From Dyadobacter sp. (lineage in GTDB: Bacteria > Bacteroidota > Bacteroidia > Cytophagales > Spirosomataceae): a DNA stretch of 64,000 nucleotides. This document shows, piece after piece, positions 56,863 to 62,036 of the stretch. Where the stretch lies: assembly GCF_017744695.1 (NCBI RefSeq), contig NZ_JAGIAS010000004.1, positions 331,303 to 395,302 of the forward strand, given 5' to 3'. The translations under genes and the position numbers were made by a program. A model generated the notes under the pieces. It was not told the origin of the DNA and ran no database searches. It saw nothing but the letters and a program-made list of their open reading frames with translations. Within the stretch, counting starts at the first letter, position 1, and the number at the start of each line of letters is the position of its first letter.

Positions 56863-58017
56863 TTAAACTGCTTCTGCTGTACGCACCAGCTCAACCAGAT
56901 CCCCGTCGTTTACTTCTTTCTTGATATCGGCTACTTCGAGAAAGCGCGTGTACAACTCGTCGAGCACAGGTTTTTCGAAAGAGAATCCAAGTAACTCCAG
57001 ACGGTGCTTCAATGCATGGCGTCCGCTGCGTGCTGTTAACACGATGTCCGACTTATCAACGCCCACATCCTGCGGGTTCATGATCTCGTAGTTCAGGTTG
57101 TTTTTCAGGAAGCCGTCCTGGTGAATACCCGATGAGTGTGCAAATGCATTGCGCCCAACGATCGCCTTGTTTGCCTGCACCGGCATGCGCATCATTTTCG
57201 ACACCAATTGGCTGGTCGGATAGATATGCTGCGTGTTAATGCCCGTTTCCAGGCCCAACTCCTGGTGCACTTTCAATGCCATTACCACCTCTTCCAACGA
57301 AGTGTTACCGGCACGCTCGCCGATACCGTTGATAGTCACCTCTACCTGACGCGCGCCCTGATTGATACCCGCGATAGAGTTCGCAGTTGCCAACCCGAGG
57401 TCGTTATGGCAGTGGATCGAAATAGTGGCTTTATGAATATTCGAAACATGTTCGAATATGTATTTGATTTTGTTTCCGTACTCGTCAGGCAGGCAGTAAC
57501 CTGTCGTGTCAGGAATATTAACTACCGTTGCCCCCGCACCAATCACCGCTTCTACCAGTTGGGAAAGGAAAGCGAGGTCGGCACGGCCTGCATCTTCACA
57601 GTAAAATTCCACATCTTCCACCTTGGTTTTAGCATATTTCGTAGCCGCGATCGCTCTTTCGATGATTTTCTCGCGGGTCGTGTTGAATTTATGCTGAATG
57701 TGAATGTCCGACGATCCGATTCCGGTGTGGATCCGTGCCCGTTTAGCATACTGCAATGCATCCGCTGCCGCGTCGATATCGCCTTGCACCGCACGTGAAA
57801 GCGCACAAATGATCGGCTCACGCACAGCTTTGGAGATTTCTACCACAGAACGAAAATCTCCGGGACTTGAAACCGGGAAGCCGGCTTCGATGATATCTAC
57901 CCCCAGCTTTTCGAGTTGTGTGGCAACAACAATTTTTTCCTCTGTGGTCAATTGGCTGCCCGGCACCTGCTCGCCGTCTCGTAAAGTAGTGTCGAAGATC
58001 TGAACTCGATTACTCAT
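56863..58017 (-). CDS. leuA: 2-isopropylmalate synthase lacking the regulatory domain
   Basis: 384 residues. The HMGL-like TIM barrel is complete: [17 protein letters not shown] near the start, [27 protein letters not shown], and the metal/His block [20 protein letters not shown] with [19 protein letters not shown]. After the linker part ([15 protein letters not shown]) the protein ends at about 384 where full LeuA proteins (about 510) carry a leucine-sensing dimer domain. It condenses 2-oxoisovalerate with acetyl-CoA. Loss of the feedback domain is notable because expression appears to be controlled instead by a leader attenuator (58067-58188). Last gene of the leu operon. Confidence 0.9.
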
Positions 58018-58066: not shown

Positions 58067-58132
58067 CAATATAAAACCCTTTCCTTGTCACGGGAAAGGG
58101 TCTGTAACTTATCAAAACATAACCTTTCCCGG
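58067..58132 (-). promoter_or_regulatory. leucine attenuator hairpins before leuA
   Basis: Three segments on minus: 1 = CGGGAAAGG (58131-58123), 2 = ACCCTTTCCCG (58101-58091), 3 = GGAAAGGGT (58084-58076). 1 pairs with 2 over nine bases (antiterminator); 2 pairs with 3 over nine bases followed by TTTATATT (terminator). The two structures exclude each other. Segment 1 starts three bases after the leader stop codon. Confidence 0.78.
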
Positions 58133-58134
58133 CC

Positions 58135-58188
58135 TCACGGTAGCTGCTGGAGATTGAGAATGAGGTTATCTTGTTGGCTCATGTTCAT
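58135..58188 (-). CDS. leuA leader peptide, 17 codons
   Basis: Reads MNMSQQDNLILNLQQLP then TGA. Leu codons are at positions 9, 11, 13 and 16 (CTC, CTC, CTC, CTA), with one Ile. Promoter 35 bases upstream, attenuator hairpins directly after the stop codon. A second ATG (codon 3) is possible as start. The composition and position are those of a control peptide: stalling at Leu codons should free segment 1 to pair with segment 2. Confidence 0.75.
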   Translation of the reverse strand: MNMSQQDNLILNLQQLP

Positions 58189-58222
58189 GTTGCGAAATTT
58201 CGCTCACCGCGATTTTCTTCTG

Positions 58223-58253
58223 CAAAGAAAGCACAAGTTTTGAATGCAACAAA
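58223..58253 (-). promoter_or_regulatory. promoter of the leuA leader transcript
   Basis: Minus: TTTG (58253-58250), 19 bases, TTTCTTTG (58230-58223). One mismatch from TAnnTTTG, ideal spacing. The start of transcription would fall about 28 bases before the leader ATG. Confidence 0.55.
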
Positions 58254-58280: not shown

Positions 58281-59351
58281 TTAAATTCTTTTCAAAAGCT
58301 CTTCGCCAGCCTGTTGGGTATTCAGGATCTTGTCAGCCGGTGTGGTTACATCGGCAATGTCACGAGTTCTGAAACCATCTTTCAGCAACTTGTCAACCGC
58401 CGAAATAATCGCTTCCGATTCTTCTTTCAAACCAAATGAAATATCGAGGAGCAATGCAGCAGAAAGTACTGATGCCAAGGGATTTGCAACACCTTTACCG
58501 GTAATGTCGTGGGCTGAGCCGTGGATCGGCTCGTAAACGCCGGTGCTATCGCCAACAGACGCCGAAGCGAGCATTCCCATCGATCCGGCGATCTGGCTAG
58601 CCTCGTCGGTAAGGATATCTCCGAACAAATTAGCAGTCACAACTACGTCAAAACGCTTAGGATCTTTGATGAGCATCATCGCCGCTGCATCCACGAACTG
58701 GTGCTCAACGGTAATGTCCGGATATTCAGGAGCCAATGCCTGAACCACTTCACGCCACAGACGGCTGGTCTCGAGAACGTTTGCCTTATCTACAGAGCAA
58801 AGACGTTTTCCACGCGTACGCGCGGCTTCGAAAGCTTTACGAGCAATGCGCTCTACCTCGTAACGGCTGTATTCCGCGATGTCGTAGGCAGTATTGTTGT
58901 CGTTTTTGCGGCCTTTTTCTCCAAAATAAATATCGCCGGTAAGCTCACGGAAGAAAAGGATATCCGAACCTTTCAAAATTTCAGGACGGATAGAAGAAGC
59001 CCCCAGCAACTCATCGAACAACTTGATCGGACGAAGGTTAGCATACAAACCAAGCTCCTTACGCATTTTCAGCAAGCCTTGCTCAGGGCGAACTTTGGCA
59101 GTAGGATCATTGTCATATTTCGGGTGACCAACCGCACCAAAAAGGATCGCATCGGAATTACGCATCTTTTCCAATGTCTCGTCGGGAAGCGGGTTACCTG
59201 TCGCTTCGATGGCCACGTGGCCCATCAATGCTTCGTCGTAAGTGAATTCATGACCGAATTTCTCGGCGATTTTTACCAACACTGCCTTTCCTACCTCTGT
59301 AACTTCTTGTCCGATTCCGTCGCCCGGAACGATAAGGATATGCTTTTTCAT
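58281..59351 (-). CDS. leuB: 3-isopropylmalate dehydrogenase
   Basis: 356 residues. ILIVPGDGIGQEVTEVGKAVL start, LLKMRKELGLYANLRPIKLF, RELTGDIYFGEKGRK, and LFGDILTDEASQIAGSMGMLASAS with YEPIHGSAHDITGKGVANPLAS, the classical beta-decarboxylating dehydrogenase signature. It oxidises 3-isopropylmalate to 2-oxoisocaproate. It lies between leuA2/cimA-like (27-base gap) and leuA; the leuA promoter and attenuator come right after its stop. Confidence 0.95.
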   Translation of the reverse strand: MKKHILIVPGDGIGQEVTEVGKAVLVKIAEKFGHEFTYDEALMGHVAIEATGNPLPDETLEKMRNSDAILFGAVGHPKYDNDPTAKVRPEQGLLKMRKELGLYANLRPIKLFDELLGASSIRPEILKGSDILFFRELTGDIYFGEKGRKNDNNTAYDIAEYSRYEVERIARKAFEAARTRGKRLCSVDKANVLETSRLWREVVQALAPEYPDITVEHQFVDAAAMMLIKDPKRFDVVVTANLFGDILTDEASQIAGSMGMLASASVGDSTGVYEPIHGSAHDITGKGVANPLASVLSAALLLDISFGLKEESEAIISAVDKLLKDGFRTRDIADVTTPADKILNTQQAGEELLKRI

Positions 59352-61644: not shown

Positions 61645-61686
61645 TGTTTAATGCTTTATGCCCTAAGCTTTAAGCTTTAGGCTTTT
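61645..61686 (+). repeat. 7-base repeat array, 3' flank of the four-helix-bundle gene
   Basis: TGTTTAA, TGCTTTA, TGCCCTA, AGCTTTA, AGCTTTA, GGCTTTT: six units in phase, from just after the leuD start codon to inside the last codons of the fhb gene. Unit type NGCYTWA, in the same orientation as the array at 62055. Confidence 0.75.
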
Positions 61687-62036
61687 TTTGTAATGCTTTT
61701 TTCCAGATTGTACAGCATTCTCTTTATCAGGTTAATTCTTTCGTTCAGTGATAAATAATCCGTTTCTGAAAGATATTTTAAATCCTTTGAGAGCTGTAAG
61801 AGATATTCAACTTCGTGGGCAGAACCCAATGAAATATGTATGAATCTTGCGAACTCCGAGTCTGTCGTTCTGCCACCTCCCTCTGCTAAATTCGTTGGAA
61901 TTGAAACAGATGCCCTCCTGATCTGCGAAGTAACACCATATGTTTCATTCGACGGAAATTTTCGCGTTTTGGTGTAAACATCAAGAACAAACTCATGGCT
62001 AACTCTCCATACCTCATACTTCCTGAAATCTCTCAT
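61677..62036 (-). CDS. four-helix-bundle protein (23S rRNA intervening-sequence protein family)
   Basis: 119 residues. MRDFRKYEVWRVSHEFVLDV start, FPSNETYGVTSQIRRASVSI, PTNLAEGGGRTTDSEFARFI, HISLGSAHEVEYLLQLSKDL: the SIPxNLAEG motif is diagnostic of the fhb/IVP family. Such proteins also occur next to diversity-generating retroelements (Avd), but no reverse transcriptase is here. The gene is AT-rich (a 120-base stretch at 61681-61800 is about 31% G+C by hand count) in an operon near 60%, so it is foreign. It sits in the same direction inside the leu operon and is flanked by heptamer arrays. Confidence 0.88.
   Translation of the reverse strand: MRDFRKYEVWRVSHEFVLDVYTKTRKFPSNETYGVTSQIRRASVSIPTNLAEGGGRTTDSEFARFIHISLGSAHEVEYLLQLSKDLKYLSETDYLSLNERINLIKRMLYNLEKSITKKA

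Follow-up and report, generated by a model that had tools for sequence, protein, structure and literature searches.

How leuA is controlled in Dyadobacter is the question raised by the short interval that separates it from the rest of its gene cluster. The window, i.e., the whole 64,000-nt stretch analysed, corresponds to G000:C12:331303-395302 of a Dyadobacter genome (Cytophagales). On its minus strand, the gene order is leuC, a four-helix-bundle gene, leuD, a citramalate-synthase-like gene (cimA), leuB, the leader, and leuA. The gene preceding the leader in this leuC-leuD-cimA-leuB cluster is leuB (58281..59351, minus strand), and the regulated gene leuA (56863..58017, minus strand) encodes a 2-isopropylmalate synthase of 384 aa with no LeuA_dimer domain. 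The four-helix-bundle protein gene (TIGR02436) sits between leuC and leuD at 61677-62036 of the window. An ilvD-ilvB-ilvN-ilvC-ilvA operon begins approximately 15 kb further upstream on the same strand, and each of its five genes exceeded at least one NCBIfam cut-off.

The minus strand upstream of leuA was read base by base, and all the leader elements proposed in the first-pass annotation were found where it had placed them. The -33 promoter element TTTG (58250..58253) lies 19 nt before the -7 element TTTCTTTG (58223..58230), which is one letter off TAnnTTTG; the Bacteroidota promoter consensus is quoted as TTTG / TAnnTTTG in a passage of PMC7366714. The leader ORF (58135..58188; ATG at 58188, TGA at 58137-58135) has 17 codons plus the stop codon and encodes the peptide MNMSQQDNLILNLQQLP. 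Its putative regulatory Leu codons (58141..58164) are codons 9, 11, 13, and 16, i.e., CTC at 58164-58162, 58158-58156, and 58152-58150 and CTA at 58143-58141, so that four Leu fall within the last nine codons. The true start is probably the second ATG (58182-58180; MSQQDNLILNLQQLP), because D. soli (L003) has no first ATG. Three bases past the stop codon lies segment 1 (CGGGAAAGG, 58123..58131), the 5' arm of the antiterminator. Segment 2 (AGACCCTTTCCCG, 58091..58103) is common to the antiterminator (58099-58091) and the terminator (58103-58093), and segment 3 (GGAAAGGGTTT, 58074..58084) is the 3' arm of the terminator. The U tract (TTTTATATT, 58068..58076) is short, interrupted, and weak; the sequence after segment 3 reads UUUUAUAUU. 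A simple generic terminator scan did not list this hairpin, perhaps because the stem runs into the Us. The interval 58067..58253 given by the first-pass annotation thus holds the attenuator parts it named, and also an operator-like palindrome that it had missed. The palindrome GCGAAATTTCGC (58192..58203, minus strand) separates the promoter from the leader ORF and is proposed to be an operator, acting as DNA on both strands; a CGC half box five bases before it (58209..58211, minus strand) may be a second, degenerate operator box.

From this anatomy and its conservation, we infer with high confidence that the leuA leader is a ribosome-mediated leucine attenuator. If charged tRNA-Leu is plentiful, the ribosome would reach the leader stop codon and cover segment 1, the 2:3 terminator would form, and leuA would not be transcribed. 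A shortage of leucyl-tRNA for CUN codons would stall the ribosome on one of the Leu codons ahead of the stop codon, leaving segment 1 free, and the 1:2 antiterminator would form. Read-through would be expected both from a stalled ribosome and from an absent one, because 1:2 is made before segment 3; in this three-segment design, transcription should pass through a leader that is not translated. A ribosome covers approximately 12-14 nt downstream. The geometry agrees with this scheme: a ribosome at the stop codon covers to approximately 58123 and hence segment 1; segment 1 is free when the A site is at codons 9-13, and two or three of its bases are covered when the A site is at Leu codon 16. 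Cover of up to 12 nt past the stop codon is given in a passage of PMC4833913.

When folded alone, the terminator piece reached -15.9 kcal/mol (z -3.93) and the antiterminator piece -16.9 kcal/mol (z -2.56). With energies so nearly equal, the choice between the structures can fall to the ribosome and to the order in which the segments are made. The 75-nt piece with all three segments folded at -19.7 kcal/mol with the terminator formed, at a z of only -1.53 (15 of 200 shuffles were as good). When the 265 nt before leuA were subjected to 20,000 dinucleotide shuffles, the terminator score was reached by 18 of them and the sum of the terminator and antiterminator scores by three; two passed relaxed thresholds for both helices together with a suitably placed ORF that had at least four L/I/V in the last 12 codons. 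Among the 53 ORFs of the window with at least 150 aa, leuA alone passed the same test.

The comparison used the best 80 out of 372 loci that encode a relative; the closest leuA matches among them (98-99% identity) belonged to the D. fermentans group. Loci L001-L052 represent Dyadobacter and close genera (Telluribacter, Rhabdobacter, Runella, Persicitalea, Larkinella, and kin). The leader and the alternating hairpins were present in 49 of these 52 mutually related, hence not independent, leuA loci, 48 being found with their ORF by the script and L025 being added through ORF search and alignment; in L038, the script chose an antiterminator different from the aligned one. The attenuator was absent or broken in the other three. 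In L013 (D. arcticus), a deletion took the palindrome and the leader start and retained the hairpins of segments 1-3, so that under the three-segment model this locus should read through into leuA. In L046, leuB lies directly before leuA, and L047 has the palindrome and no attenuator. Together with the anatomy, this conservation supports the leucine attenuator that the first-pass annotation had read here.

The pairing was assessed in an alignment of 50 rows from which L013, L046, and L047 were excluded. Paired cells made up 98.1% of 539 for the terminator and 97.0% of 401 for the antiterminator, compared with peaks of 88.0% and 75.3%, respectively, in the slid controls. Both the percentage paired and the covariation score exceeded all slid controls for both helices. 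The Leu codons and alternating hairpins were kept among related Cytophagales, as the first-pass annotation had predicted; however, the compensatory changes that it also predicted were few. Double-change cells numbered 18 in the antiterminator, 15 of them at the single column pair 18-59 (A-U, G-C, or G-U), and one in the terminator, which is fewer than in some slid controls; the numbers of pairs with a double change (1 and 2 pairs) were not above shuffles. Covariation within leuA is modest because the segments vary little in sequence. A better argument comes from the ilvD leaders of the family, in which other segment sequences occupy the same layout.

The 49 loci encode 44 distinct leader peptides with 2-7 Leu each (mean 4.1), which differ widely yet remain Leu-rich. 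Leu accounted for 35.7% of the last 10 leader residues compared with 8.1% in 15 genes of the own genome, and its positions peaked 7 to 4 codons before the stop codon. The ORF search favoured L/I/V-rich candidates; nevertheless, the Leu richness does not stem from the choice of frame, since only one stop codon with a fitting ORF was found in each of the 49 loci. The 180 Leu codons of the leaders were CTC (61, 34%), CTT (59, 33%), CTA (26, 14%), CTG (20, 11%), TTG (10, 6%), and TTA (4), and those of leuA in the same loci were CTC (161, 11%), CTT (289, 20%), CTA (59, 4%), CTG (353, 24%), TTG (461, 31%), and TTA (159). The difference gave a chi-square of 172, whose p-value is indicative only because the sequences are related. 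The leaders favour CUC, CUU, and CUA and shun UUG and CUG, which are common elsewhere, as if the sensor were a CUN-reading tRNA-Leu.

Sister leaders were found in the same genome. The ilvD leader, whose peptide MKLTLIVPVLIIVTPQA (then stop) is rich in Ile, Val, and Leu, has the attenuator architecture of leuA with different segment sequences; its antiterminator pairs GTGAGTGGGATG with CACCTCACTCAC, and its terminator has a T-rich tail. The trpE leader (L251, G000:C6:21000-23273, minus strand) encodes MKLFNTIWWWRTYPSKMDK (MKLFNTIWWW..., then stop) with three consecutive Trp codons, followed by a strong GC-rich hairpin and a run of seven T; by eye, it was read as a trp attenuator, a reading that does not include the antiterminator. 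The trpE gene itself fell short of the model cut-off (399.5 bits against 517.7). No leader was evident by eye before hisG and thrA of this genome.

These observations bear on two other accounts of the leader. The hairpin might be a partial terminator blind to leucine, in which case the ORF would be translated, its codons would be irrelevant, and read-through would be set by the general translation or growth rate. Such a device would not explain why Leu is strongly enriched near a fixed distance from the stop codon while the rest of the peptide diverges, why the choice of Leu codons is skewed, or why the ilvD leaders are rich in Ile, Val, and Leu and the trpE leader carries WWW; we consider it very improbable, even though the U tract is weak and, in the passages of PMC1262725 concerned, the Streptomyces ilvB and leuA leaders with candidate peptides are said not to have behaved as strict attenuators when mutated. 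Control by a T-box or another known riboswitch is scarcely credible, given that neither the window nor 12 further loci gave a match at the gathering score to any Rfam family, enteric leader families and T-box included. T-boxes are common at leucine genes in Firmicutes, which is the point in favour of that account. The preferred reading of the leader is thus leucine attenuation by a translating ribosome.

That leuA here lacks the feedback domain had been noted correctly in the first-pass annotation, which went on to suggest that control may have moved to the RNA for that reason. The relatives did not support this suggestion. LeuA_dimer was retained in the three Bacteroidales leuA genes with a leader that were scanned (L059, L073, and L078; the leader and both helices were found by the script in L073, the helices by the script and the ORF by eye in L059, and all by eye in L078), and short LeuA proteins without LeuA_dimer occurred where no attenuator was seen (L046, L047, L064, and L076). 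RNA control as a replacement for the lost domain was therefore rejected, since the leader and the domain coexist and the domain is missing where no attenuator was seen. In the other orders (L053-L080), automatic detection mostly failed on the longer Bacteroidales leaders, and, apart from L073, L077, and L079, what is said of these loci relies partly or wholly on inspection by eye. Leu codons, runs of Ile codons (e.g., IIIIRLR), and long alternating hairpins were seen in the Bacteroidales leuA leaders of L059, L060, L061, L063, L070, L073, L077, L078, and L080, several of them by eye.

The palindrome has a distribution of its own. The exact 12-mer occurs in the own genome in the leuA and ilvD leaders only, the second copy (G000:C12:404265-404276, L083) being at the same distance from the -7 element as in leuA. 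The pattern GCGAAWWTTCGC had three sites in this 7.8-Mb genome, namely the two leaders and one GCGAATATTCGC that is apparently coding. With at most one mismatch, the palindrome was found in 82 of the 112 upstream regions read, some species being represented twice. The palindrome usually stands 19 nt from the -7 element: the distance from a TTTG to the palindrome was 19 nt in 60 of these 82 regions, 18 nt in 8 (one of which has a second TTTG at 6), 20 nt in 4, 21-22 nt in 3, and 2 nt in one; TTTG was absent in 6, one of them incomplete. The CGC half box was found at the same spacing in 52 of the 82 operator-bearing regions, and the distance from the palindrome to the leader start varied. At least one site was held by 92 of 101 family genomes. 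Each of the seven genomes from the own genus carries a pair of sites on a single contig, separated by 13.8-15.0 kb; at the sites inspected (both in the own genome and one per genome in the remaining six), the gene was leuA or ilvD. In other genera, sites were found upstream of ilvD, leuA, malate synthase aceB, pckA, glutamate synthase (gltB), and a peptide symporter, and some lay inside ORFs. Glutamate synthase and an oligopeptide:H+ symporter are the genes that follow the palindrome in genus g28 (L125, L131, L127, and L130), which hints at what may be a wider nitrogen regulon.

The palindrome was also considered as a part of the attenuator, and this was rejected because each module occurs without the other. 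The operator occurred alone before leuA in L047 and before ilvD in, e.g., G002, G004, G018, and G034, and the attenuator alone before ilvD in G020, G046, G060, G072, G083, and G092. Both modules precede ilvD in the own genome, G011, G015, G024, G027, G029, and G031, and neither was convincing before ilvD of G012, G057, and G030.

Lying just past the presumed start point, the palindrome GCGAAATTTCGC would be the operator of a RamB/ScfR-like XRE+IrrE regulator, of the acetate-regulator type, that would control ilvDBNCA as well. The comparison among genomes makes this assignment likely. In genus g36, two sites lie between aceB and a divergent gene for a protein with XRE and IrrE domains. The Dyadobacter counterpart, a single-copy gene at G000:C9:1421229-1422764, encodes a protein 52% identical to that of g36, and a relative is present in 87 of the 101 family genomes. 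Its domains are HTH_3 (48.0 bits) and Peptidase_M78 (25.0 bits, cut-off 22), likewise in three relatives. ScfR-like regulators combine an N-terminal XRE helix-turn-helix with an IrrE/M78-like domain, and the Dyadobacter protein has this build in the wide sense; NCBIfam places the regulator close to RamB, but at 48-53 bits against the RamB model (NF038139) it scored far under the cut-off of 700. A search of solved structures with the regulator gave helix-turn-helix matches only.

Sites accompanied the regulator gene. Among the regulator-bearing genomes, 85 of 87 had a site (241 sites in total, compared with 73 for the reversed-pattern control), and among the regulator-less genomes, 7 of 14 (16 sites, control 8); all 9 inspected of these 16 lay inside ORFs. 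In 30 genomes hand-chosen to span genera, including eight without the regulator, 18 of the 19 regulator-bearing genomes that could be assessed had a site before ilvD, compared with none of the eight regulator-less ones (G003, G007, and G008 were omitted owing to a split match, a short locus, and no start found, respectively); the ilvD of regulator-bearing G046 has no site. For leuA, the corresponding counts were 12 of 22 and 0 of 8. Of 40 regions preceding the regulator gene itself, 13 contained a site, compared with 0.21 expected. Seven of these 13 were already known to have a site when they were selected; among the remaining 33 regions, 6 were positive, and G053 and G078 among these 6 belong to the same genus as two known ones. 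Seven genera have a site directly upstream of the regulator gene (g2, g6, g19, g21, and g36, and second copies of the gene in g3 and g27). The palindrome lies between the regulator gene and a divergent aceB in L115, L117, L195, L210, L230, L237, L238, and L241, and between it and a divergent pckA in L203 and L218. In Dyadobacter, the sequence preceding the regulator gene contains no site even when one mismatch is allowed, and autoregulation is therefore not indicated in this genus. We infer that the regulator most likely acts as a repressor, since the site lies just after the presumed start point. As a possible owner of the palindrome, an AraC-type gene (L084:1552-2400) came into consideration only for its position, between the ilv and leu clusters; it was set aside once the RamB/ScfR-like gene proved to have a site upstream of itself in other genera.

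Two rivals to this assignment were weighed. Another regulator may bind the palindrome, with co-occurrence being phylogenetic: the regulator-less genomes belong to few genera (g13, g21, g26, and g31), which may have lost other genes too, and the Dyadobacter regulator gene has no site. We regard this as rather unlikely, considering that a site stands directly before the regulator gene in seven genera and with two different divergent neighbours, aceB or pckA. Moreover, among six g21 genomes, only G046 has the gene, with a site before it, and in the others the 6 sites inspected of 11 all lay inside ORFs. It is less probable still, and on the whole improbable, that the palindrome works as RNA rather than as a DNA operator, either as a small 5' hairpin or as a three-part CGC-GCG-CGC switch. 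An RNA element would be expected neither to be palindromic to the centre and nearly invariant rather than covarying, nor to stand before unrelated genes and between divergent genes, nor to follow the presence of one transcription factor gene. The palindrome is transcribed at a nearly fixed distance from the promoter and can fold alternately with the CGC half box (-7.0 kcal/mol for a 26-nt piece, 13 of 200 shuffles being as good); nevertheless, the folds were not beyond shuffles (z -0.31 for 33 nt and -1.49 for 26 nt). With the palindrome as an operator of the RamB/ScfR-like regulator, the explanation as a whole, that leuA would be controlled at two levels by attenuation and by control of initiation, appears quite probable to us.

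The attenuator is of a known kind, and the operator common to leuA and ilvD is newly recognised; no paper on this leuA leader or on the pairing of operator and regulator was found in the open-licence literature. Lopatovskaya 2010 (Mol Biol 44:128), a reference given in PMC4833913, may already list Bacteroidota attenuators. The enteric leu leader likewise has a short peptide with clustered CUN Leu codons and a mutually exclusive terminator and antiterminator, and the Dyadobacter leader resembles leuL-leuABCD of E. coli and Salmonella in these respects. However, an untranslated leader terminates in the enteric four-segment scheme, whereas the three segments of Dyadobacter should give read-through. 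The Dyadobacter leader also differs in having a Bacteroidota promoter, serving leuA alone at the cluster end, and matching no Rfam family. As described in the passages of PMC5794164 concerned, the ilv-leu leader of S. aureus similarly combines a repressor site at the promoter with a Leu/Ile-rich attenuator peptide; the regulator there is CodY rather than an XRE + IrrE, RamB/ScfR-like protein, the antiterminator pairs with the poly-U, unlike that of Dyadobacter, and leu and ilv do not each have their own leader with a common operator as in Dyadobacter. Within the same phylum, amino-acid operons of Flavobacterium psychrophilum had been suspected of leader-peptide attenuation (PMC9723704), and Bacteroides thetaiotaomicron was described as having long 5' UTRs whose short ORFs recall such attenuation (PMC7366714); the main-text passages of these papers give no leuA anatomy, covariation, codon bias, or operator. 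The actinobacterial LEU element, in the part of PMC1262725 that describes it, also places a leader ORF with Leu codons before leuA.

RamB, PrpR, and ScfR share the helix-turn-helix and IrrE-like build. In passages of PMC3420887 and PMC10370305, the regulator gene lies beside aceB, the boxes are paired (palindromic in PrpR), the targets belong to glyoxylate metabolism, and RamB of P. denitrificans binds CoA esters. In the present system, the regulator gene stands beside a divergent aceB or pckA in several other genera, though not in the own genome; boxes in pairs, as between aceB and the regulator gene in g36, a palindromic sequence, and putative targets in glyoxylate metabolism are further resemblances. 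It differs in that the palindrome is GCGAAWWTTCGC rather than TTTGCAAA, that the protein is far below the RamB cut-off, and that the proposed targets include ilvD, leuA, and gltB. One evolutionary account, for which we see even chances, is that a regulator of the glyoxylate shunt and gluconeogenesis (aceB and pckA) in sister genera has been narrowed in Dyadobacter to the leaders of leuA and ilvD, with gains and losses of operator and attenuator in the family independent of one another. An acyl-CoA-type carbon signal would then gate the promoter, and charged tRNA-Leu or tRNA-Ile/Val would act afterwards at the attenuator. A search of the own genome with one relative's aceB and one pckA gave no match, with no positive control for these queries, and this fits a regulon narrowed to ilvD and leuA.

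Translation initiation in Bacteroidota proceeds largely without Shine-Dalgarno sequences, and to our knowledge, whether the ribosome follows RNA polymerase closely in this phylum has been little studied. A conserved attenuator read by the ribosome at leuA, together with the sister leaders of ilvD and trpE, would imply working coupling near promoters, and the leuA leader may offer a simple reporter for transcription-translation coupling.
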